Virus record (IMG/VR): IMGVR_UViG_3300025778_000059
Location: 1 to 29,503 of that record
Source of the DNA: a virus
Strand: one strand, 5' to 3'
DNA: 29,503 bases
Shown here one piece after another: positions 9,350-24,798 of the stretch (its first letter is position 1; each line of letters opens with the position of its first letter). Under the pieces are notes generated by a model. That model did not search any database. It saw nothing but the letters and a program-made list of their open reading frames with translations, and was not told where the DNA came from. Position numbers and translations under genes: made by a program.

Positions 9350-9703
9350 TTAAACCTCTTTTATCAATACTTTGTCTATTTTATCTGCATTTGTTTCGTT
9401 TGTAGAGTGAATACAATACCAAACGCAGTCCTCTAAAGCTAAAATTGCATGATTTACCGCTGCTTTAATTTCAATACAGGCTGGTGAAACATATTTATTT
9501 GAATCATAATCTGTGGTAATTAGGACAGAACCTTTAGCCAATAGGCTTAAATGGCTGTAATGATGCTGATGTGAGATTGCGGTATATCCTTTAGGAATAC
9601 GCATTTCTTTAGCATACAAACCATCAGAAAAATGATGAACTGTGCCTAGATCGACTTCAAAAGTCCCTAAATGCTTTTTGGCTAGTTCTGTAATATTAGA
9701 CAT
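9350..9703 (-). CDS. cupin-fold protein in the tail region
   Basis: A small beta-barrel protein. I choose the ATG at 9703 (MSNITELAKK) because it overlaps the upstream gene by only eight bases; the longer form from 9733 would overlap by 38. The segment GYTAISHQHHYSHLSLLAKG fits cupin motif 1, G(x)5HxH(x)3-4E(x)6G, except that the Glu is His, leaving a three-histidine metal site. A later NHAILAL supplies a possible fourth ligand. Cupins bind metal and small molecules or sugars. Lying among neck and ejection genes, it could be a virion component or a moron-like enzyme; the sequence does not say which. Confidence 0.7.
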   Translation of the reverse strand: MSNITELAKKHLGTFEVDLGTVHHFSDGLYAKEMRIPKGYTAISHQHHYSHLSLLAKGSVLITTDYDSNKYVSPACIEIKAAVNHAILALEDCVWYCIHSTNETNADKIDKVLIKEV

Positions 9704-9932
9704 TGTAATAAGGCACTTTAAAAGGTTGACCATTAATGGTGACGTTCATAAAACCAGCAGGATTTGCAGGCAAAGTAGCTGTGCCAGTAGTTGCCGTTGT
9801 TGATGATGTGTTATTAACTAAATTAAGCAAATACTGAATCCACGCCCTTGTGGGGCGATTTGTTTTGGTTTCCAAGAAATCGGTTTGTGGCAAAGGATTG
9901 TTAGTATTGCCAGTAAATATCTGATTAGCCAT
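9696..9932 (-). CDS. small structural protein, 78 aa
   Basis: Lies between the gp10-like protein and the cupin, with a TAATG junction upstream and an eight-base overlap downstream. It begins [15 protein letters not shown] and contains TNRPTRAWIQYLLNLVNN, then a serine/threonine-rich linker and an end rich in strands (GQPFKVPYYNV). The RAW..YLLNL segment looks like a short amphipathic helix that is often seen in small phage tail-associated proteins. It occupies the place where P22 has the tail needle gp26, but it is far too short and lacks a long coiled coil, so it is not called as the needle. Confidence 0.55.
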   Translation of the reverse strand: MANQIFTGNTNNPLPQTDFLETKTNRPTRAWIQYLLNLVNNTSSTTATTGTATLPANPAGFMNVTINGQPFKVPYYNV

Positions 9933-11932
9933 TAATTTTCCCCTTCTGAGCCTTTAAGGTTGGCAGATACGATAACCGCTTTAACGGGATCGGTTACTAC
10001 AACCTCAAAAATTCTATCTCTGGCTTGACCTAATCTGCGCCAAATAGCACGATTTTTGTATTTACCTTGCTGACCAATGTTTTGCCAATGCTCATTAGAG
10101 TAGGTAGAACCACCATCGTTTGACCAGCGTAGCATTGCTTTAGGATTGGTTAAAGTATCTGAAGGCTGGATTTGTCCTGCGCTACCCAATACATCAATAT
10201 CATTTACCCCAATAGTTAAAGGAGTGCTTAAAGAAATCGTGTAAGGATTGCCTAAATAGGTGTTTCTGTCTTTAGAAAAGCCATTAATACCAACGCCAGG
10301 CTGAAACTGAATCTGTAATTCATCAAAGAATTGACGTTGTAAATCAGTTAAAAGGTGGGGGGCTCTGCGTAATCTACGGATTTCACCGCCATTATCGGTG
10401 TAATTAGATTGATCTAACTGATATAAATTGCCGTTTTGCCAATCACCTACTACTACAACGCCTTGAAATACCGCAGCGCAATTACTGCGGTGACGATGAT
10501 AGACGTTGTTTGAATCTACCCAAAGCCATTTATGCCATAGCTGGGTAGTAAAGTCGTATGCCCAAGTAATGTCTATCGTTGGGAAAGTAATCACATAAAC
10601 TTCGTGACCTTCAAGTTGATAAGTATAAGCAATAGCATCAGCAGTATATTGATCTACAAGGCTTTGCTCGACTGCGTGGGTAGAAATTCTGACAGGGACA
10701 TAGCCATTCATAGCTACAACTTGATTTAGACCACGAATATTTTGTGACAGATAAGCAAAAGAATTGCCTACTCGTGCTACAGAGAACGGGGCAATAATAC
10801 CTTGTTGGGTAGATGAGCCAGGGATTCTTTGATAAGCAAAAGGGAATGTGCCTTGATCTTGCCAAACTTCTGAAGATTTCTCGCCCAAAAGATAAAGCTG
10901 TCCATCGCTTGCAATTAAAGAAACTAAATTGTCAGGCGAGGTAAATTTACTAGCAAAACTTAATGGTCTAGTAATTGGACTTAATAAATCAGATACGGCA
11001 AATTGCTGTGTGCCAGGTCTGTTATAAATAAAGTAATTGTCGTTGACATCAACTACGCCACCGCCAGTAAATGCGCCATCAGTAGATGGAATAATTGAAA
11101 ACTGCTCTAAATACATGGTTTCAGAGCTTACAGTCAAGCTATTAGCACCACTTAGAATATATGTACCCGTGCCACCTGTGCCTGTTCCCAATGCAGTAAT
11201 AATTGTGTTAACAGGAATATTTGCGCCCGTAACAGTTGTGCCTATTTGCAAAGTTCCATAAGAAACTGCTGAAACAGTAAGGGTAATTACTAATGATCCA
11301 CTAGATGTTGATGAAGCAATAGCACCTGTAAAACTAGCAGTAGCAGGGGCTACATTCAGTTGTTGAGAGGATATATTTTGGCTGTAATTGACTGTATATA
11401 CAGAACCAGACCCACCTGTAACAATAGTGCCAGGCGAAACACCAACTCCATATAACTCAGACCCTACTTTAATATTAACGGGATTAGAGCTAGTAATGTT
11501 TAAAGTTGTGCCTGTGACATTCCCTGTAAAAGAAATAGTATTGGGCTGTTCTATTAGCCAAGAATATCGATAAGTGCCGTCAACAATATAAACATAAATG
11601 CCATTGTCGGTAATGCTTACAGGGCCTGTAGAGGTTAATAAAGAACCAATAATTGCGGGCTGAAAATTATAAGCTACAGAATATACATATTGTCCGCATA
11701 CTGCGATTAATTGTGAACCGCCTGAAGATATGGCTCTTAGACCTCTTACTGCTTGCTGATTAGGGAATGTTGCTAATAATGTTAGACCTGGTGTTGGATA
11801 TAAAGCAGTAACACCTCTTTCGCCAGGTGCTTTTGTAGGATCAACCTCTGGCCTCCAATTGATGCACTCTTGGTCATCTTGGTATATAGAGGGTGCTGTG
11901 TAGGAAGCTCCTACAAATCCAAAATCAGCCAT
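9932..11932 (-). CDS. gp10-like packaged-DNA stabilisation (neck) protein
   Basis: In P22, gp10 forms a hexamer that closes the head below gp4 and connects to the tail. This 666-residue protein starts with [11 protein letters not shown] and [11 protein letters not shown], then a beta-propeller-like series ([19 protein letters not shown]), and later [13 protein letters not shown]. These fit the gp10 family. P22 gp10 is 472 residues. The extra length here is largely two beta-modules at residues about 134-194 and 200-275, rich in G, S, T and V ([13 protein letters not shown], then [12 protein letters not shown]), inserted between propeller strands. A related module is in the gp4-like neighbour. 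TAATG junctions flank the gene. Confidence 0.82.
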
Positions 11933-12903
11933 TATCTAAAGAATCCTCCAGATAGAATCCAGCCAGCATCTTTTTGACGGCTAGATAACATTGCATCAGC
12001 AAATCGTGCAGATTGAACTGGGCGCATATTGGTGCGTTTGATAGTTGCTTTAGCTTGAGCTGCGTATGCTGCAATCATGGTGATTTGAGTCTGTGATGCT
12101 TTACCATACATAGGCATTAAACGTTCTGCTAAACACCAACGCAAAGCCATGTTATAGCCTTGTGGCAGAATAATTGAATCGTAGAGTGATGTGTATTTTG
12201 AAAAAATAAAGTCAGCAAAAACGTGCATTTCACCCTGTGATGGGTTTGGCCATACAAAGAAGTTGCCTAATTGCTCAGTTGGCTGATAGTAAAGAGCTTT
12301 AGGCCACGGGCCATTTAAAGTCTTTAAACCAATCATTTCGTAATCTTCTACGTTCAAAATAGAAACTGGGTAATCTAATCCGCCATTGTTAATTGGAATA
12401 CCATTGCTGTTTGTATTAATTCGCACAAACGCTGAATACACATTTAATGGGCGTTCATAGTAAAGATTAAGGGTTTCAGAGCTAACAGTTTGGCTAATAT
12501 TTACTGTATATGTGCCAGCTTCGTTTACATTACCGCCTGCGCCTGTTTGGAAAGCAACAATCTTCGTGCCTGATGCCACGCCCGTACCGCTAATGGTTTG
12601 ACCTAGATTGATTGCACCTGAAGATATGCCTGTAACAGTAAGGGTTGTCCCTGATATAGAACCCGTAATAATTGCGCCAACTTGACCGCCAGGGCCAATC
12701 GTATATTGAGTTTGACCAGCAGTAATTGGGAATACGATTTCAGTCTTATAGAAAACCATCATATCTTCGTTTGACCATTGATCGATTAGATCATTAAGCA
12801 TATCAAAAGCATCTTGAGCAGCCTCTGGGGTTGGAGTTTCACCCGCTTCTAATGCCCCAATGTCTTTTAATGCTCTTGAAATAATGTCAATTGGCTGTGT
12901 CAT
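11932..12903 (-). CDS. gp4-like head-to-tail adaptor protein
   Basis: The P22 gp4 family binds the portal and starts closure of the head. The N-terminus ([17 protein letters not shown], then [20 protein letters not shown]) has the conserved helical pattern of the family, including the [11 protein letters not shown] block. A strand follows ([13 protein letters not shown]), then an extra beta-module at about 77-148 ([14 protein letters not shown], then [16 protein letters not shown]), after which the normal core resumes at [12 protein letters not shown]. The C-terminal helices contain the [16 protein letters not shown] block. P22 gp4 is 166 residues and also carries a lytic activity, which I do not see here. 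Confidence 0.82.
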
Positions 12904-12912
12904 AACAAATCC

Positions 12913-13227
12913 TTAAATATTCGGTGTAAAAACTTGTGGCAACCACGGCAATACCGCTTTGTTTTTACTTCTTAATGCCTCTAATTGCTTATCTAATTGG
13001 GCAGTAATATGACACTTTCCATCAATTACGGCTTCAGATTGAATCCAATTAGCAATTAATTCTTCTGTAACGTCTTTAAATGCTATTTTACCTTCTGGGC
13101 AGTCAAAATACCAATTGCCTTCAGTTTCTACGCTGTTTTGCTCATCACTTGCAGTAACGTGATATTTAGCGTGAGTAATGACCTCATTCTCAGCAGAAAT
13201 CTCAGTAATTTTCCATACATAACTCAT
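12913..13227 (-). CDS. conserved tail-region protein, 104 aa
   Basis: Begins MSYVWKITEISAENEVI and continues with alternating strands and an acidic helix (FKDVTEELIANWIQSEA). The VWKI start and a WIQSEAV-type helix followed by a QLDKQLEAL helix resemble a small family of conserved phage proteins usually next to fibre genes. I recall that similar proteins occur in T4-like cyanophages, but I assign no function. The ATG at 13227 overlaps the stop of the glycine-rich adhesin upstream (ATGA), so the two are translationally coupled. It may be a fibre-assembly or tail accessory protein. Confidence 0.6.
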   Translation of the reverse strand: MSYVWKITEISAENEVITHAKYHVTASDEQNSVETEGNWYFDCPEGKIAFKDVTEELIANWIQSEAVIDGKCHITAQLDKQLEALRSKNKAVLPWLPQVFTPNI

Positions 13228-14258
13228 GCTGTATAAGTTCCTGAAGAAGTAAATTTAATAATGGTGTTTGAACCGCTTGTGGTTACTGTTGGGCTACCAG
13301 TTGTTGTTCCTGAGTAACTAGAAGTAGGAACTCGAATAATTACAACACCTGATCCACCTGAAAGACTTGCTGCACCACCGCCACCAATGTTTGCAGTAGA
13401 ACCACCGCCTTGACCATTAGAACCTGATGAACCGCCACCATAAATACCGCCACCACCGCCAGCGTAATAAACGCCAGTTCCAGTAATATTGTTTGATAAA
13501 CCATCACCGCCATTGCCAGGCGTTGTGCTTGTATTGCTTGTTCCCATAGCTCCTGCACCGCCACCACCTGAAGCAGTTGTATATGGATAACCACCAGTAG
13601 TGGAATTTCCACCAGCATTTCCTTGACCTGATGTTCCTGATCCACCAGCGTAGACTCCTGCACCACCACCACCGCCTGATCCACCATTAGCTCCAACGCT
13701 AGAAATACCGCCAGAACCGCCACCGATTGCTGTTGTATATCCTGTAATTGAAGAATTGCCACCATTAGCTCCTGAAACACCGCCTGCTCCTACAGTAACT
13801 GTAAGAACTGTGCCAGTAATAAATGTGACTTGAGAGCCTCCAATGGTCGTTAAATAGCCTCCACCACCACCGCCACCATAATATCCACCGCCACCGCCAG
13901 CAACAATTAAATAGTCTGCCAAATATGCGCCTTCAACTGAGCTGGTAAATTTAATCCAATTTCCGTTTTGATAACCTTCATAAAATCCACCGCCATCGGT
14001 ATTAAAACGAATCATCCCTGTTACAGGGCTAGTTGCTCTTTGCGCTGTATTGCCTTTAGGAAGCTGTAATTGCCCTGTTCCTGTAAAGCTAGGAGTGCCA
14101 GTAACAGTTAAGTTATTAACAGTTAAGTTGTTGGTGCTATCGGCAAGTAAAAGCGTTCCGTTAGTAGCAGGAAGGGTTACATTAATTGCGCTTGCAGTAT
14201 CGGCATTAGTAAGAGTTACTGTGCCACCAGAATTAGCTAAAAAGATTAATTCGCTCAT
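13224..14258 (-). CDS. glycine-rich tail adhesin, 344 aa
   Basis: I choose the ATG at 14258, which forms ATGA with the previous stop; a start at 14270 is less likely. Residues about 1-110 are threonine/asparagine-rich strands ending NGNWIKF. Residues about 113-320 begin ADYLIVAGGGGG and form a long glycine-rich domain with many GGGG runs. The last 40 residues (SGVVIIRVPTSSYSGTT, then a TSGSNTI..FTSSGTYTA end) match the end of the 1052-residue fibre. Glycine-rich domains of this type can fold as packed polyglycine helices, as in the S16 gp38 adhesin. A receptor-binding role is inferred. Confidence 0.78.
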   Translation of the reverse strand: MSELIFLANSGGTVTLTNADTASAINVTLPATNGTLLLADSTNNLTVNNLTVTGTPSFTGTGQLQLPKGNTAQRATSPVTGMIRFNTDGGGFYEGYQNGNWIKFTSSVEGAYLADYLIVAGGGGGYYGGGGGGGYLTTIGGSQVTFITGTVLTVTVGAGGVSGANGGNSSITGYTTAIGGGSGGISSVGANGGSGGGGGAGVYAGGSGTSGQGNAGGNSTTGGYPYTTASGGGGAGAMGTSNTSTTPGNGGDGLSNNITGTGVYYAGGGGGIYGGGSSGSNGQGGGSTANIGGGGAASLSGGSGVVIIRVPTSSYSGTTTGSPTVTTSGSNTIIKFTSSGTYTA

Positions 14259-14617
14259 GCTGCCACCCAAGATTTAGTTGTTTCATCCCATTTATAAGGT
14301 TTACCATCTGTAGGCATAGGGGTTGGGGCTTCCCATAACCAAGTTGTCTGATTTAGAGTCCAAGATGGGTAAGGTTGGGGCGCATAAAATACATCATTAG
14401 TGTGATCGTATGAATAACCAATTCCTGCGTAGTTTCCACGCAAAGCCGTTCCATTATCTTGCTGACCATCTGCACCATAATGTTTTCCACCACGGGTATT
14501 GTAAGAAGTCTGAATCCAAGAACCAGGGCTTGTATCTACAAAATGATTAAAAAAGTCGGCTTCAGCCACAATTACTTGTGTTACTTTGCCGTCTACTACT
14601 TTTGCGTAATGTGACAT
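14255..14617 (-). CDS. conserved fibre-associated protein, 120 aa
   Basis: Starts MSHYAKVVDGKVTQVIVAE and contains WIQTSYNTRGGKHYG, then ALRGNYAGIGYSYDHTNDVFY and PQPYPSWTLN, ending with WDETTKSWV. This aromatic-rich layout is highly conserved across marine and freshwater phages, including T4-like cyanophages, where it is a predicted structural protein. The function is not known to me. It lies between the two glycine-rich adhesin genes and overlaps the downstream one by four bases, so it is expected to be made in step with them, possibly as a cap, chaperone or surface component of the fibre. Confidence 0.75.
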   Translation of the reverse strand: MSHYAKVVDGKVTQVIVAEADFFNHFVDTSPGSWIQTSYNTRGGKHYGADGQQDNGTALRGNYAGIGYSYDHTNDVFYAPQPYPSWTLNQTTWLWEAPTPMPTDGKPYKWDETTKSWVAA

Positions 14618-14627
14618 GATTTTCCTT

Positions 14628-17600
14628 TTATGCTGTATATGAACCGCTAGATGTAAATGTTAATATTGTATTGCTTCCTGATGTTGTAACAGTTGGGCTT
14701 CCTGTGGTTGTGCCTGTGTAATTTGCGGTTGCTACAGAAATAATTACCACTCCTGAACCACCATTTCCACCAGCATAGTATGTTGAATTAATAAATCCAC
14801 CGCCTCCACCACCACCGCCAGTATTAGCCGCTCCAGCAGTACCAGTGGAAGAATAAGTACCACCATTTCCACCGCCACCTGTACCGCCTGTGCCGTAAGT
14901 TAATCCGTCATAAGTATTATTACCGCCACCGCCCCCACCGCCAGCATATGTTACGGCTGAACCAGTAATTGAGCTAGAAGTTCCATTACCACCATTACCA
15001 GGCACAGTTGAAGAAGGTGTACCACCAATAGCACTAGAACCACCGCCACCACCAGGATTTTGAGTTATTCCATTAGCACCAGCATAGCCTTGTCCTGATG
15101 TGCCAGAGCCAGCAGTTCCAGAAGCGTATCCACCACCACCACCTGACCCACCTGATAATCCATTTGCTGCAAATCCACCGCCTCCACCACCAGCTATTGC
15201 AGATAGACCAAAACCTGTGCTATTTGTTCCACTTGAACCAGTATTTAAACCGCCAGACGCACCACCATTTCCACCGCTTCCTACAACAAAAGAATAAGTT
15301 GTTCCAGAAGATAAAGTTGTTGTACCGCTTAGCAATCCACCAGCACCGCCACCGCCACCTGAAGCAGAACCACCTCCACCACCGCCAGCAACAATTAAGT
15401 AAGAAGCAGAATAGCTAAGAGATTTCCATGTTGGGGTAGATGATCCTTGTGAAACTAATACTTGGCCTGATGTTCCTGCTGCTGTAAATCCGTAAGCAGT
15501 TCCAGTTCCGTATGCCACTGCACCAGCAGTAGGGGTAGCGGATGAATTTGTGCCACCATAAGCAATTGCTAAAGTACCGCTAGAAATATTGCTTGCATTA
15601 AGACTGGTTAAATTTGCACCTGAACCACTAAAAGAGGTTGCAGCCAAAAGACCTGTGCTAGGTGTGTAATTAAGTTTAGTGGAGCTAGTATATTCATTAG
15701 TAATAGAACCAGATGTAACACGAGCAAATAATGGATAATAAGCACTTGCAGAGCTTGTATCGTCTGTAATTGTGATTCCAGAAGAAGAAGCAGCAGCCCA
15801 AGTCGGTACACCGCCCGCCAATGTTAAAACGTATCCGTTTGTTCCAGCAGCTAAGAAAGTCGTTGTATTTGCCGAGGATTGATAGGGCAATGAACCTGTT
15901 GCACCGCCAGCTAAATTTGTGGCGGTTGTTGCTGATGTTGCGCTGGTTGCTGTGGCAGCGTTCCCGCCAATCGAAAGACTAGAAGCTGTACCTGTTAAAC
16001 CTGTTCCTGCGCCACTAAAGCTAGTAGATGTAAATACGCCAGTAGAAGGGTTGTATTGCAGTTTAGTAGAGCTTGTATATTCTGTTGATAAGTTTCCGCT
16101 TGTTTGGTTAGCAAACAAAGGATAACGAGTGCTATTTGTAGTGGTGTCATCGGTTACAGTCGCATAAGCAGTTGGGGTTGTCCAAGTTGGCGTTCCTGTT
16201 CCTGCGGATGTCAAAACTTGACCTGAAGTGCCAGCAGCAGTAAATCCTGTTGTATTTGCTGAAGATTGCCACGGAATTGCACCCGCTACTCCGCCAGCCA
16301 AATTAGTCGATGTTGTTGCTGTTGAGGCTGATCCTACGGAAAGGGTGCTTTGAGCTACATATTGTGGAGCAGATGCACCAGCAGTCAATACATAGTTTGT
16401 AGTGCCTAAAGCAAGGCTAGTAGTTGTGCTAGAAGCCGATTGATACAATAATGAGCCTGTTGCCCCACCAGCTACGTTAGTTGCCGTAGTTGCACTAGCG
16501 ACTGCGCCACTTACGATAGAACCTAAAATTGAGGTAATCCAGCTAGGATTTGAGTAGCTACCTGTTGTATATACGCCATTAGTAACTGTTCCAGCATTAC
16601 CTGTAATACTGATTCCCCAATTACCACTAGCGTTTGTGCCTGTGGTAGAAGGTGCGCCCACAGTATTGTATGAAACAGTTAACGCAGAAGCACCATTAAA
16701 GGTTGACCCAGATGCGCTTCCTGACCCGCTATTATTAAATGTAATGCTATTCGTTACACTTCCTGCACTTGTAGCAGATGTTGCAGTCGCAGCATTTCCG
16801 CCAATACTTAATCCTGATGCTGTTCCTGTAAGCCCGCTACCTGATCCACTAAAAGAAGAAGTAGCAGTAATAGTAGTACCAGTAATTGCGGAAGCAGTAG
16901 AACCGCCAATAGTAGTGCCATTGATTGATCCTCCTGTAATTGCTACGCTATTTGCATTTTGGGTTGACATTGTGCCAAGACCGCTAACTTGGCTATTTGA
17001 TATTGCAATAGCAGTAGCAGATAAAGACGTTAACTGACCTTGAGCATTGACTGTTGCTAATAATGTGTTACTAGACGAACCATAAGAACCGCTGGTAACG
17101 CCTGTATTGGTAATGCTAAATTGGTTTGAAGAAAGCGTTAAACCTGTGCCTGCGGTGTAAACAGCACTACCTGAGAATTGAACCCACGGCATCGCTGTGA
17201 CGTTGATTGTTCCCGTCTGTGTTGCTGTGCAAACCCAACCTGTGTCAGATTGACCGCCATTTAATATGACTGTATAAGCACCTGGCACTTCTGACCATAC
17301 ATCCATATCTGTAGAACGAGTCCATGCAGATGCAGATGCGATATAAATGCCGTTATATTGGCTCAAAGACTGGTTTTTGACGAGAACACGATCACCAGCT
17401 AGGGTAGTGTACCCATCAATCGTTTGTAGCCCTGAGAGCGTTATATTGGCTGTTGTTGCGACTTGGCAAGCAGCTTTAGGGCCAAGACCTTGTGCAACTG
17501 TATCGACATAGTATTTATTAGCAATATCAGTAGAGCCTGAGGGCGTGGTGCTAATTTGCCCTGTAGTGGTCGTAATATTGGTAAAAACGCCTGTAGAAGG

Positions 17601-17786
17601 GCTTATAGCACCGATTGTAGTGCTGTCAATCGTGCTATTAGTAATGGTTAACCCTGATTGAACAGGGTTAAATGTGGCGTAAAAGGGCTGACCTTGACCT
17701 ATGAACGTATTAAACGTGCCATCAAGATTAAAATACGCCTGAACAGGCAGGAGATTCTGCGTTACAGAATCATTAATTCCAGCCAT
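14628..17786 (-). CDS. long tail fibre / adhesin, 1052 aa
   Basis: Largest gene of the window. Residues 1-35 contain NLLPVQAYFNLDG and a GQG motif shared with the 17796-18266 protein, probably an attachment tag. Residues about 85-225 form a fibre domain with ANKYYVD, then LAGDRVLVKNQS, NGIYI and WTRSTDMD, known from many phage fibres. The shaft (about 260-790) is built from repeats: SIGGNAATATSATSA, SANTT-x-F-x-AAGT, and a TDDT...YPLFA...EYTSSTKL unit, each at least twice. From about 793 (SYLIVAGGGGGG) to the end is a glycine-rich tip homologous to that at 13224-14258. Host-receptor recognition is inferred. Confidence 0.85.
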   Translation of the reverse strand: MAGINDSVTQNLLPVQAYFNLDGTFNTFIGQGQPFYATFNPVQSGLTITNSTIDSTTIGAISPSTGVFTNITTTTGQISTTPSGSTDIANKYYVDTVAQGLGPKAACQVATTANITLSGLQTIDGYTTLAGDRVLVKNQSLSQYNGIYIASASAWTRSTDMDVWSEVPGAYTVILNGGQSDTGWVCTATQTGTINVTAMPWVQFSGSAVYTAGTGLTLSSNQFSITNTGVTSGSYGSSSNTLLATVNAQGQLTSLSATAIAISNSQVSGLGTMSTQNANSVAITGGSINGTTIGGSTASAITGTTITATSSFSGSGSGLTGTASGLSIGGNAATATSATSAGSVTNSITFNNSGSGSASGSTFNGASALTVSYNTVGAPSTTGTNASGNWGISITGNAGTVTNGVYTTGSYSNPSWITSILGSIVSGAVASATTATNVAGGATGSLLYQSASSTTTSLALGTTNYVLTAGASAPQYVAQSTLSVGSASTATTSTNLAGGVAGAIPWQSSANTTGFTAAGTSGQVLTSAGTGTPTWTTPTAYATVTDDTTTNSTRYPLFANQTSGNLSTEYTSSTKLQYNPSTGVFTSTSFSGAGTGLTGTASSLSIGGNAATATSATSATTATNLAGGATGSLPYQSSANTTTFLAAGTNGYVLTLAGGVPTWAAASSSGITITDDTSSASAYYPLFARVTSGSITNEYTSSTKLNYTPSTGLLAATSFSGSGANLTSLNASNISSGTLAIAYGGTNSSATPTAGAVAYGTGTAYGFTAAGTSGQVLVSQGSSTPTWKSLSYSASYLIVAGGGGGGSASGGGGGAGGLLSGTTTLSSGTTYSFVVGSGGNGGASGGLNTGSSGTNSTGFGLSAIAGGGGGGFAANGLSGGSGGGGGYASGTAGSGTSGQGYAGANGITQNPGGGGGSSAIGGTPSSTVPGNGGNGTSSSITGSAVTYAGGGGGGGNNTYDGLTYGTGGTGGGGNGGTYSSTGTAGAANTGGGGGGGGFINSTYYAGGNGGSGVVIISVATANYTGTTTGSPTVTTSGSNTILTFTSSGSYTA

Positions 17787-20229: not shown

Positions 20230-21468
20230 TTAAGCTGCAACACGGCAAGCGAGTTCAGGATACAAGTTAGCCCAACCATACAGAACGTCTAAACGAGTAG
20301 GAATAGAATCGTTGTTAATGGTGTATTGACGAACTACACGCATTGACAGACCGATTTCCTTATCGCTTGCACGACCTGCAAAGTGAACACCCTCTGGCAA
20401 CTCAAGGTCGGCTACTGCAAGAGTAAACGCATTGCGGTGCATGATGATGTTTTGTGGGGAAACAGTACCAGACTGGTTAAAGAAGGTAACAGCTTGTCCG
20501 CTTGCTGGAGAAGGAATAGATACGTTCTGGAACTGACCAGCGGTGATGATTGCTGGGGAAACGTTTACAGAAATAGTACCACCTGAGCCAGAAACAGCAG
20601 TATTAACTACAAAGTTACGCAACTTGTTTGAACCATAAGCTTGACGATTCTGTGGGTTAACTGCATAAACGCCAGCGATAGTGAATGTATCGCCTTGGTT
20701 CAAGCTAACGCCATTGGTCAAAGACAAAGTGATGGTGCTTGAAGAAGCCCAACCAGATGTCAAGAAACCAGTAGCGGTAGAAGTGTTAACAGTAGCAGAA
20801 CCTGAGAAGTTACCGAAAGTATGGGATACGATGTTTTGATCCATCTTCCAGTTCATACCAGCAGAGTCACGACCCATCAAACCTTTGCGATACTGCTCGC
20901 CAATAGCTTCCTGTGGCACAAAGAGGCCTTTCAAGCTGTCAACGATAGTAGCTGAGGTAAATGGCTCAACTGTGCATGAACGACGACCATCACGTGGTGC
21001 GCCTTCAGCATCAAGGTAAGCAGCAGCGGTCAAGTAAGTGATCAAACCAGTTGGAGGCGTACCAGCAACACCAACGATGTTCGCTGTGTTGTTAGCAGCT
21101 TGCAAAGTACCATCACGGTCAATCTTGTTAGCGATAGCAGCTACAGCAGGCTTCAATACACGATCAGAGAACATATCCAAAGACAAAGCTAAGTCTTGGG
21201 TTGTGAACTGTGTGTCAACGTGAAACTGAGTTGACAAAGTCACAGGCACAGAAGTTTCATTGAAGTCTTCTACGTTTAGGGCTGGGCCAGTTGTACCAAT
21301 GAAACGACCTGGTTTACGAACGTTAACTGTGTTACCGATCTTGCCACCCACGATTGCAAATTGGTCGTCATAATTTCTATCGACTTCGCTTGTAAATGTT
21401 AATTCGTTTTCCAAGACCATCAACGCTTCGTTGGTGATCTTAGAAATAGTTAGCAAATTATTTGCCAT
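20230..21468 (-). CDS. major capsid (coat) protein, P22 gp5-like
   Basis: Forms the icosahedral shell. The N-terminus (NNLLTISKITNEALMVLENEL, read in pieces) and FTSEVDRNYDDQFA, then GNTVNVRKPGRF, are characteristic of P22-type coat proteins. QFHVDTQFTTQDLALSLDMFSDRVL lies on the following helices. Residues about 215-330 are rich in S, T and G and should include the inserted I-domain of this family (INQGDTFTIAGV-like block: SLNQGDTFTIAGVYAVNP). The end is LYGWANLYPELACRV. Length 412 compares with 430 for P22. The start follows AAAGGAAA. A co-chaperonin gene at 28639 may help fold it. Confidence 0.92.
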   Translation of the reverse strand: MANNLLTISKITNEALMVLENELTFTSEVDRNYDDQFAIVGGKIGNTVNVRKPGRFIGTTGPALNVEDFNETSVPVTLSTQFHVDTQFTTQDLALSLDMFSDRVLKPAVAAIANKIDRDGTLQAANNTANIVGVAGTPPTGLITYLTAAAYLDAEGAPRDGRRSCTVEPFTSATIVDSLKGLFVPQEAIGEQYRKGLMGRDSAGMNWKMDQNIVSHTFGNFSGSATVNTSTATGFLTSGWASSSTITLSLTNGVSLNQGDTFTIAGVYAVNPQNRQAYGSNKLRNFVVNTAVSGSGGTISVNVSPAIITAGQFQNVSIPSPASGQAVTFFNQSGTVSPQNIIMHRNAFTLAVADLELPEGVHFAGRASDKEIGLSMRVVRQYTINNDSIPTRLDVLYGWANLYPELACRVAA

Positions 21469-22722: not shown

Positions 22723-24798
22723 TTAAATAGCCCTTTCTACGGCTTCTTCGTTGGATAGTTTCATTTCAGTCTTGTTCATGTGAGCCAAAACAAGGGCTAA
22801 TTGCGCCTTCAGTTGCTCAATTTCAAGCTGAGTTTGTGTCTTAATAACTGTGTCATGAGCAATCGTATCGGTGCGTAACTGGCTATCAGCTTGCTTAACT
22901 TGCAATTCCATCGCTGTTTTCTTAAGCATTGCCTGATCTTTTTGCTCTGTAACGCTGGCACGATATTTAGCATCCATCTGCATCATCTGAATCTGCTCTT
23001 GTAGCTTCTGAATCTGTGCTTTGCTTTGAGCAATCATCATCTGAGCTTGTGGAGGAATATCGGATTTCTCATCTATTTGGGCGAGAGGATTATTGATTGC
23101 CAAGCGGTCAGCAATGATGTCTGAGCCAGGGAAATCCATGTTTCTGACATATAGATCACCAGCGACTTGTACGAGTTGAGGATCAGCAGCAAATAAGTTG
23201 GTCATTGCCTCTACAGCTTCTTGACGCTTGGAGTTATAGCCAGGGCCTGTATCCATTACAACGTCATATTCACCGACTGTAACGTCATTTAAGACCTTAG
23301 CTACGCCATTTTCGTCTGAACCTGGCTGATTTAATGTAACGATTTCAGGCTTTCCATCATCGCCAATGATCCGCATGACTCGTTCTCTGTCATAAATCTT
23401 AGGCACTAAATCCAAAATAATACGACCTGTGTGACGGATACTGCGTGTCAGATTGTCGTAATAATGGAAGTTAGTCATATCAGCTTGCATCTGCTGACCA
23501 TTGATTGACTTGCCTGACTGAATACCTTGTGGAAGCTGGCTAGGATCAAAAATACCTACAACTGCTTGTAAATCCTGATTCATGCCTTGCAAAGCAGCCA
23601 TTACGCCCGCAGGAGGTGGCTCTGGTTGCAATCTTGTAGGGGCTGGAGCTGGTCTACCTTCGGTATCTGTCTGTTTGTAACGCAATACAGGCATAGCTTT
23701 GATATTAGCCATCGCCCATTCGTTCTCATGTCCTTCGTCTTGACCCTCTGCCAACAGCCACTTAGCTTTAGGAGCAAGAGCTACAGTTTCAGTAAGGGCA
23801 GTAGACCAATAGTTATACATACGCTGTGGGTCTTTAGCCATACGAACTAAGCCAAATTTCTTATGCTTATCGTCTACTCTGACTTCTTGACCATAAACAG
23901 GCACGATTGGAATGTATTTACCAGCCCATTCTCCTTCTTCAAGGATTTGCATAGCGGTTAGCTTGCAATATTTAATCTTTTTGCGCCAAACATCACGCTT
24001 TGCAATGACAGTAATGCCTGCTTGGGCTAAAACTTCTTTGCTTGGGACTTCGCTGGAATAGCCAGTTGTGCCATCAGATAGCTCTAAAAGCATATCTTTA
24101 ATGCGTTCTGTGTAGAAATACTCAGCTATGCGTATATCTTCTTTTGTAACCCATTCGCTCTCTGTATCGCCCGTTCCTCTTGATGAGAAACCCTGATCCA
24201 CTTCTGCATCTGGGTACATGGTTTTAAACACTTCTTTACTGACAACTGTTGTGATAAGAACTCTCTCAGCATCAGAACCATCAGGCAACACACTATTAGG
24301 ATCAAAATAAACAGTAAATGGGTTCTCAACTGGTCTAATGTAGATTTCTTGATCAAAGCTGTCCTCTTTTACATAGTCAGTAGTAATGCGCCAATAGCCC
24401 CAACCCATCTTTACGCAATATTCAAAAGCGTGGTCATAAGCTGCATCTGCATCGGATTGGTTTTCAATATGACGGCAAATACCTGTCAGAATCTCTGCTA
24501 CTTTCTCGTCTGACTCATTGTTCATGCCATGCACTTTAATGCGTGGGCGTTGCTGTCTTTGCTGGTTACAGATTTGACGGATATAAGCGTCAACTTTATT
24601 GATAGTCAAACAAGGTCTAGCTTCTAAAACACGGCTATTTTGCACGTCTACAGGCCATTGATCGCCTGCTGCAAATCTTACGTCATCCAACGCTTCTGCA
24701 CGATTGTTGCTATCCGAATCATTACAAAGTCTTAAAAAGTCCTTTGCTTCTTGGATTCTGCCATCTGATTGGGAGTCTGCAACGCTATCGTATGCCAT
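22723..24798 (-). CDS. portal protein, P22 gp1-like
   Basis: The dodecameric ring through which DNA enters and leaves the head. 691 residues (P22: 725). The N-terminal region holds EAKDFLRLCNDSDSNNR, then FAAGDQWP and LTINKVDAYIRQICNQQRQQRP, and MGWGYWRITTDY with NPFTVYFDP, all characteristic of P22-type portals. The C-terminal 150 residues form a long glutamine-rich helix (AQMMIAQSKAQIQKLQEQIQ, read in pieces), like the barrel of P22. It is followed by the small 22506 gene and the scaffold, and preceded by terminase, the normal packaging order. The ribosome site is AAGGAA. Confidence 0.93.
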   Translation of the reverse strand: MAYDSVADSQSDGRIQEAKDFLRLCNDSDSNNRAEALDDVRFAAGDQWPVDVQNSRVLEARPCLTINKVDAYIRQICNQQRQQRPRIKVHGMNNESDEKVAEILTGICRHIENQSDADAAYDHAFEYCVKMGWGYWRITTDYVKEDSFDQEIYIRPVENPFTVYFDPNSVLPDGSDAERVLITTVVSKEVFKTMYPDAEVDQGFSSRGTGDTESEWVTKEDIRIAEYFYTERIKDMLLELSDGTTGYSSEVPSKEVLAQAGITVIAKRDVWRKKIKYCKLTAMQILEEGEWAGKYIPIVPVYGQEVRVDDKHKKFGLVRMAKDPQRMYNYWSTALTETVALAPKAKWLLAEGQDEGHENEWAMANIKAMPVLRYKQTDTEGRPAPAPTRLQPEPPPAGVMAALQGMNQDLQAVVGIFDPSQLPQGIQSGKSINGQQMQADMTNFHYYDNLTRSIRHTGRIILDLVPKIYDRERVMRIIGDDGKPEIVTLNQPGSDENGVAKVLNDVTVGEYDVVMDTGPGYNSKRQEAVEAMTNLFAADPQLVQVAGDLYVRNMDFPGSDIIADRLAINNPLAQIDEKSDIPPQAQMMIAQSKAQIQKLQEQIQMMQMDAKYRASVTEQKDQAMLKKTAMELQVKQADSQLRTDTIAHDTVIKTQTQLEIEQLKAQLALVLAHMNKTEMKLSNEEAVERAI

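Follow-up and report, generated by a model that had tools for sequence, protein, structure and literature searches.

One family of small β-domains inserted in two adjoining neck proteins of a virus with a P22-like structural block

Do the extra segments carried by two adjoining neck proteins of a virus belong to one domain family and, if so, how did they come to lie in both proteins and what might they do there? The stretch of DNA analysed here (the window) is the whole of IMG/VR record IMGVR_UViG_3300025778_000059, 29,503 bases that are possibly a fragment of a virus genome. A P22-like structural block on its minus strand comprises genes for a portal (22723-24798, PF16510), a coat protein (20230-21468, PF11651), an SU10-type adaptor (11932-12903) and a gp10/Hc3 protein (9932-11932). 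The stop of the adaptor gene overlaps the start of the gp10 gene, with no gene in between. About 53 relatives have a gap of 300-900 bases separating gp4 from gp10, and the gap of locus L081 (5035-5613) holds a gene resembling those of HNH/homing endonucleases. Just downstream of gp10 in the window lies an ORF of 127 aa (9350-9733) matching short tail fibres or fibre adhesins and, weakly, cupins, while two predicted tail or fibre proteins with Gly_rich_2 (PF21722) at their ends (13224-14270 and 14628-17786) sit between the coat and adaptor genes. No host is claimed here: a bacterial MAG contig with both genes (Methylococcales, L333) may be a binned phage contig.

The adaptor, of 323 aa, is gp4-like: it passes the cut-off of the SU10_adaptor family (PF24175, 34.9 bits against 27, residues 157-291), matches phrog_637 (Ad3) and is linked by Foldseek to podophage adaptors. 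As far as the secondary structure of its AlphaFold2 model goes, strands 51-233 lie between helices 26-45 and 250-266. The gp10-like tail protein, of 666 aa, is a full-length match to head closure Hc3 (phrog_578, E=2.5e-93, residues 1-662), with phmmer matches to 7eeq_1 and 9vyg_M. Its AlphaFold2 model, a predicted seven-bladed propeller with a platform, is matched by Foldseek to P22 gp10 (8eap_D, E=3.5e-23) and also to Sf6 7sg7_S.

An earlier note on this DNA had proposed that related β-modules interrupt both proteins, the conserved core resuming after each, and that such a module may spread between genes. The gp4 module covers residues 77-148 (12460-12675, minus strand; profile match 79-145, 93.3 bits with the module alignment), the first gp10 module residues 134-194 (11351-11533, minus; match 135-192, 70 bits) and the second residues 200-275 (11108-11335, minus; match 201-273, 67.9 bits). 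These coordinates, taken over from the earlier note, all translate in frame. The three modules belong to one family of all-β domains of about 65 aa, with a consensus of 63 protein letters. A profile of 28 module sequences, none of them from gp4 or gp10, matches exactly three places among the ORFs of the window: the gp4 module (78.8 bits) and the first and second gp10 modules (36.2 and 50.9 bits). The module alignment, searched against the entire record, likewise returns the three module places and no others. Profiles made from gp4 modules only detect the gp10 modules, and those made from gp10 modules only detect the gp4 modules. In local BLASTP the gp4 module is 41% identical to each gp10 module (E values of 5e-15 and 1e-13 in a three-sequence database), and the first and second gp10 modules are weakly similar to each other. 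The proposed relationship is thus borne out by independent profiles and by local BLASTP.

No family in Pfam or NCBIfam covers this domain. Among the Pfam Ig families, the gp4 module reaches 14.8 bits with Big_6 (E=0.034, cut-off 27.6) and the gp10 modules match none; no relative of the module turned up among solved structures by sequence search. Partial matches to the modules do come from phrog_21413 (unknown function) and phrog_38233 (tail fibre protein) in most proteins tested, through positions of about 398-468 and 555-629 of the respective profiles. The gp4 and gp10 proteins of the window match both across their module regions, and so does an isolated module from the second gp10 slot of L041 (E=1.7e-16 and 2.5e-14). 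Both are long multi-domain clusters in which the module domain is neither delimited nor named.

Homologues without modules define the insertion sites. About 80 related loci lack modules in both proteins, gp4 being about 230-250 aa long in them and gp10 about 475-510 aa, and the segments are therefore not part of the core of all homologues. When 60 gp4 homologues, some with modules and some without, are aligned, the insertion site has a conserved YTIGPGG at its upstream edge (residues 67-73, 12685-12705, minus) and a conserved RP at its downstream edge (residues 151-152, 12448-12453, minus; P152 is invariant); module-less gp4 proteins join YTIGPGG directly to RPxxI where the window carries its module. 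Module-less gp10 proteins have a short turn, GYxxNP-xTG-xxxQI, at the site of the two modules of the window. There the gp10 core resumes at residues 276-286 (11075-11107, minus), where the alignment and model strand 278-281 place the fourth strand of the blade that the modules interrupt. Resumption of the core is clean on either side of the inserts in gp4 and gp10 alike, as had been supposed, and permissive insertion sites are now defined for both adaptor and gp10/nozzle proteins. Other inserts occur at these positions. The gp4 homologue of Xanthomonas phage PBR31 (L083, 2045-2998) has about 60 aa inserted at the gp4 site, with a diverged form of the motif (ISGAGIPAGATVTAI) that falls below the profile threshold. 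After residue ~130 of the L172 gp10, unrelated inserts (GSGYxxPTxTI repeats and a STAVTVGQQVFYNNNLYTY stretch) occupy the module site, which for this reason resembles an insertion hotspot.

The AlphaFold2 models give the gp4 module a pLDDT of 84-92, except for loop 121-130 at 63, and the first and second gp10 modules 87-95 and 88-93. The predicted strands are 1) 76-95, 103-105, 114-118 and 131-148 in the gp4 module; 2) 133-146, 159-161, 170-175 and 178-195 in the first gp10 module; 3) 199-226, 233-235, 243-248, 256-260 and 268-276 in the second. At the level of secondary structure, each is a unit of about 65 aa that begins and ends with a long strand, and the strand order is similar in all three, which speaks against structurally unrelated segments. 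The closest solved fold found by Foldseek for the module region is 8eci_1 of Arthrobacter phage Bridgette (75 columns, rmsd 2.9, 25% identity, probability 1.00, with an E value of 0.12 that is not significant), a separate chain of 124 residues, whereas the module is an insert.

Where the modules would point can be judged from the models and from related necks. Seven blades of four strands each can be read from the gp10 model. The insert falls between strands 122-126 and 278-281, in the turn joining the third strand of a blade to its outermost one; by our reading this is blade two, although the blade number may shift with the closure of the propeller. The gp4 site is, in the model, a hairpin of the adaptor β-domain, probably the one to which tail fibres dock. 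A β-rich fibre dock is present in the T7 and SU10 adaptors (PMC9509320, PMC6702177), and the SU10 propeller has its blades 1-3 away from the channel and accommodates inserted Ig-like nozzle domains (PMC9509320). The gp10 blade bearing the insert probably faces away from the channel and, from the predicted strand order together with the published T7 and SU10 architecture, we infer that both sites face outward. T7 gp12 and SU10 gp17 (PMC6702177, PMC9509320) share with the present case the insertion of domains in a propeller nozzle and the β-rich adaptor dock. The present case differs in that adaptor and nozzle carry one domain family, which many close relatives lack, and the likeness is architectural, with no sequence relation claimed.

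The explanation that we consider probable is that an outward accessory β-domain was inserted separately in two stacked neck proteins, where it serves as cement or spacer and/or in weak binding. The domain, of about 65 aa and all-β, would have entered permissive hairpins of the gp4-like adaptor (probably a dodecamer) and of the gp10-like propeller or nozzle (probably a hexamer) of a P22-like podophage, the core fold of each carrier running on across the insert. With both insertion sites in hairpins that probably point outward, the modules would surround the neck on its outer side with one or two collars of β-domains. Like Ig-like virion domains, these would be cement or spacers and/or weak surface binders on which assembly would not depend, and stability and/or weak adhesion seems the most likely function of such an outward accessory domain. 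The numbers of gp4 and gp10 modules vary separately, from (0,0) to (3,2) per locus (gp4, gp10).

The two slots may not serve alike. Mean identity is 0.68 for the gp4 module against 0.71 for the gp4 core, while the gp10 modules, at 0.58-0.61 against 0.70 for the gp10 core, evolve faster than the protein around them. An inserted loop of the GAGGNVNE type occurs in 101 of 141 gp4-slot modules and in none of 249 elsewhere; together with the conservation of this slot, it suggests a specific, fixed local contact rather than a free accessory domain. Since the gp4 module is slow and has the loop and the gp10 modules are faster, we favour a putative role as accessory cement or spacer for the gp4 module; those of gp10 would have a looser role, accessory or adhesive.

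Additional Ig-like domains of phage tail sheath proteins offer the nearest parallel, adhesion or stability having been proposed for them (PMC9230969). Such Ig-like or β-sandwich virion domains (PMC9230969; Hoc, PMC10385173) are, like the module, small β-domains inserted or appended in variable copy number, carried by unrelated virion proteins and missing from homologues. The module differs in its length of about 65 aa, its distinct sequence signature, its scores below the Pfam Ig cut-off and its location inside connector ring proteins. A tenable alternative, to which we give limited credence, is that the modules are adhesion domains, which by weakly binding host-surface or environmental glycans would increase encounters with the host, in the manner of Ig-like, BACON and Hoc domains. 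The published proposal for Ig-like domains agrees with this, as do the sharing of the domain with tail fibres, pectate-lyase spikes and laminin-G fibres, the faster evolution of the gp10 modules and the acceptance of other domain types at the gp10 site (L172). It fits poorly with a gp4 module nearly as conserved as its core and equipped with a slot-specific conserved loop; moreover, the neck does not make the first contact with the host, and profile searches with lectin families give no match to the modules.

The domain reaches well beyond the neck of this virus. The 28-row module alignment being too diverse for a collection scan, we used a six-row subset. Viral contigs gave at least 448 confirmed stretches and bacterial genome contigs 47 loci; the domain is widespread, mostly in virion proteins. 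Carriers among the matches listed include the neck terminator (PF23961), tail sheath (DUF3383/phrog_205), cement (PF22758) and head protein (phrog_1912) families, Phage-tail_3, phrog_2048, Baseplate_J, major tail protein (phrog_807), phrog_687 and phrog_3287, as well as tail-tip proteins, laminin-G and other fibres and pectate-lyase spikes; an HK97-type major capsid protein and one gp10 are added by structure prediction. Recurring in about a dozen unrelated virion proteins, the domain behaves like a clip-on part. It is joined to a cement protein in L204 and L360; in the window it is an insert in neck proteins only, not a stand-alone decoration or cement protein. Adjoining neck terminator and tail sheath genes both carry the module in L216, L223, L329, L331 and L343, and in L223 a third neighbouring head gene carries it too.

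To follow its history in the neck, we counted modules in 292 loci with both genes, gathered from four seeds (certain contigs enter the count twice, and contig ends truncate some of the genes). Counts for gp4 and gp10 were (0,0) in 80 loci, (1,0) in 73, (2,0) in 21, (3,0) in one, (1,2) in 46, (2,2) in 21 and (3,2) in one; a nested domain was present in 38, and 11 had gp10 counts of 1 or 3, from cut genes or split matches. In none of the 292 does gp10 have modules while gp4 has none. A quick tree was made from 98 gp10 cores after the insert columns had been taken out. It requires a single change for the presence of modules in gp4 and a single one for gp10, the latter nested inside the clade with gp4 modules; the gp4 copy number (1-3) requires 12 changes on it, or nine on the gp4-core tree. 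The insert of L083, a locus scored here as module-less, is possibly a remote member of the family, in which case the gp4 gain may be older.

This distribution bears on an unlikely reading in which module copies in adjacent proteins touch one another and lock neighbouring rings, so that the domain recurs in partners that are in contact. The confinement of gp10 modules to loci with a gp4 module would be expected, as would the loci with modules in both terminator and sheath and the conserved loop specific to the gp4 slot. Yet the common (1,0) and (2,0) states imply that the gp4 module needs no gp10 partner, local recombination alone may share domains among neighbouring structural genes and, each gain being a single event on the tree, the co-occurrence in gp4 and gp10 has no statistical weight. 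Quite unlikely, too, is the broader version in which an uncatalogued promiscuous domain acts as a clasp, matched copies in touching proteins (adaptor and nozzle, terminator and sheath) reinforcing the joints of the particle.

Recent copying of modules between gp4 and gp10 within genomes, through gene conversion or by duplicating a DNA cassette, is in our view very improbable, as nearest neighbours almost always share a slot (55 of 56 for the first gp10 module, 30 of 30 for the second and 43 of 47 for the first gp4 module) and nucleotide identity between gp4 and gp10 modules is 0.57 within genomes against 0.56 between them, an excess of about 0.01 that a nucleotide permutation detects but that is tiny. 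The module pairs of the window are 0.53, 0.46 and 0.29 identical in nucleotides. A case for copying comes from L196, where neighbouring tail genes have copies identical at 79% of amino acids and 81% of nucleotides, just above the 99th percentile of the background; within-genome copying may therefore occur elsewhere. Of the idea that the module spreads between genes, the part that stands is its presence in many virion proteins; no recent copying between gp4 and gp10 is seen and modules group by slot, and by these comparisons the spread of the domain between genes appears to be old here, not a recent process.

Convergence, in which Gly/Thr/Ser-rich β-structures came to look alike without homology, is hardly credible: the composition of the modules is biased and tblastn of the consensus module against the phage collection returned nothing (presumably through the low-complexity filter), but the best of 9,000 composition-matched shuffles scored 12.7 bits against 36-79 for the real modules, which also share ordered motif blocks and a similar predicted strand order.

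The phage proteins known to share domains are mostly fibres, sheaths and endolysins. In the present neck, one unnamed domain lies within two stacked rings of the connector sealing the genome in the head, in up to three tandem copies, and one profile labels a domain of about a dozen virion families (among the matches listed) that is missing from Pfam and NCBIfam. Shared accessory β-domains, and domain mosaicism among phage proteins in general (PMC10684548), are already known as a kind of phenomenon; on this domain, or on its insertion in both adaptor and gp10, a partial literature search found no paper.

In many relatives a second domain is itself nested inside the module domain. What looked like a third module in gp10 proteins of 700-749 aa proved on inspection to be a different domain of about 75 aa, located in the variable loop of the second gp10 module (L021, L030, L033, L042, L044, L069, L072 and others). 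Its sequence runs GTGYAVNDTITVxGG...GSGTGLTLTLTFG, and its best profile match is phrog_9703, a head decoration family.
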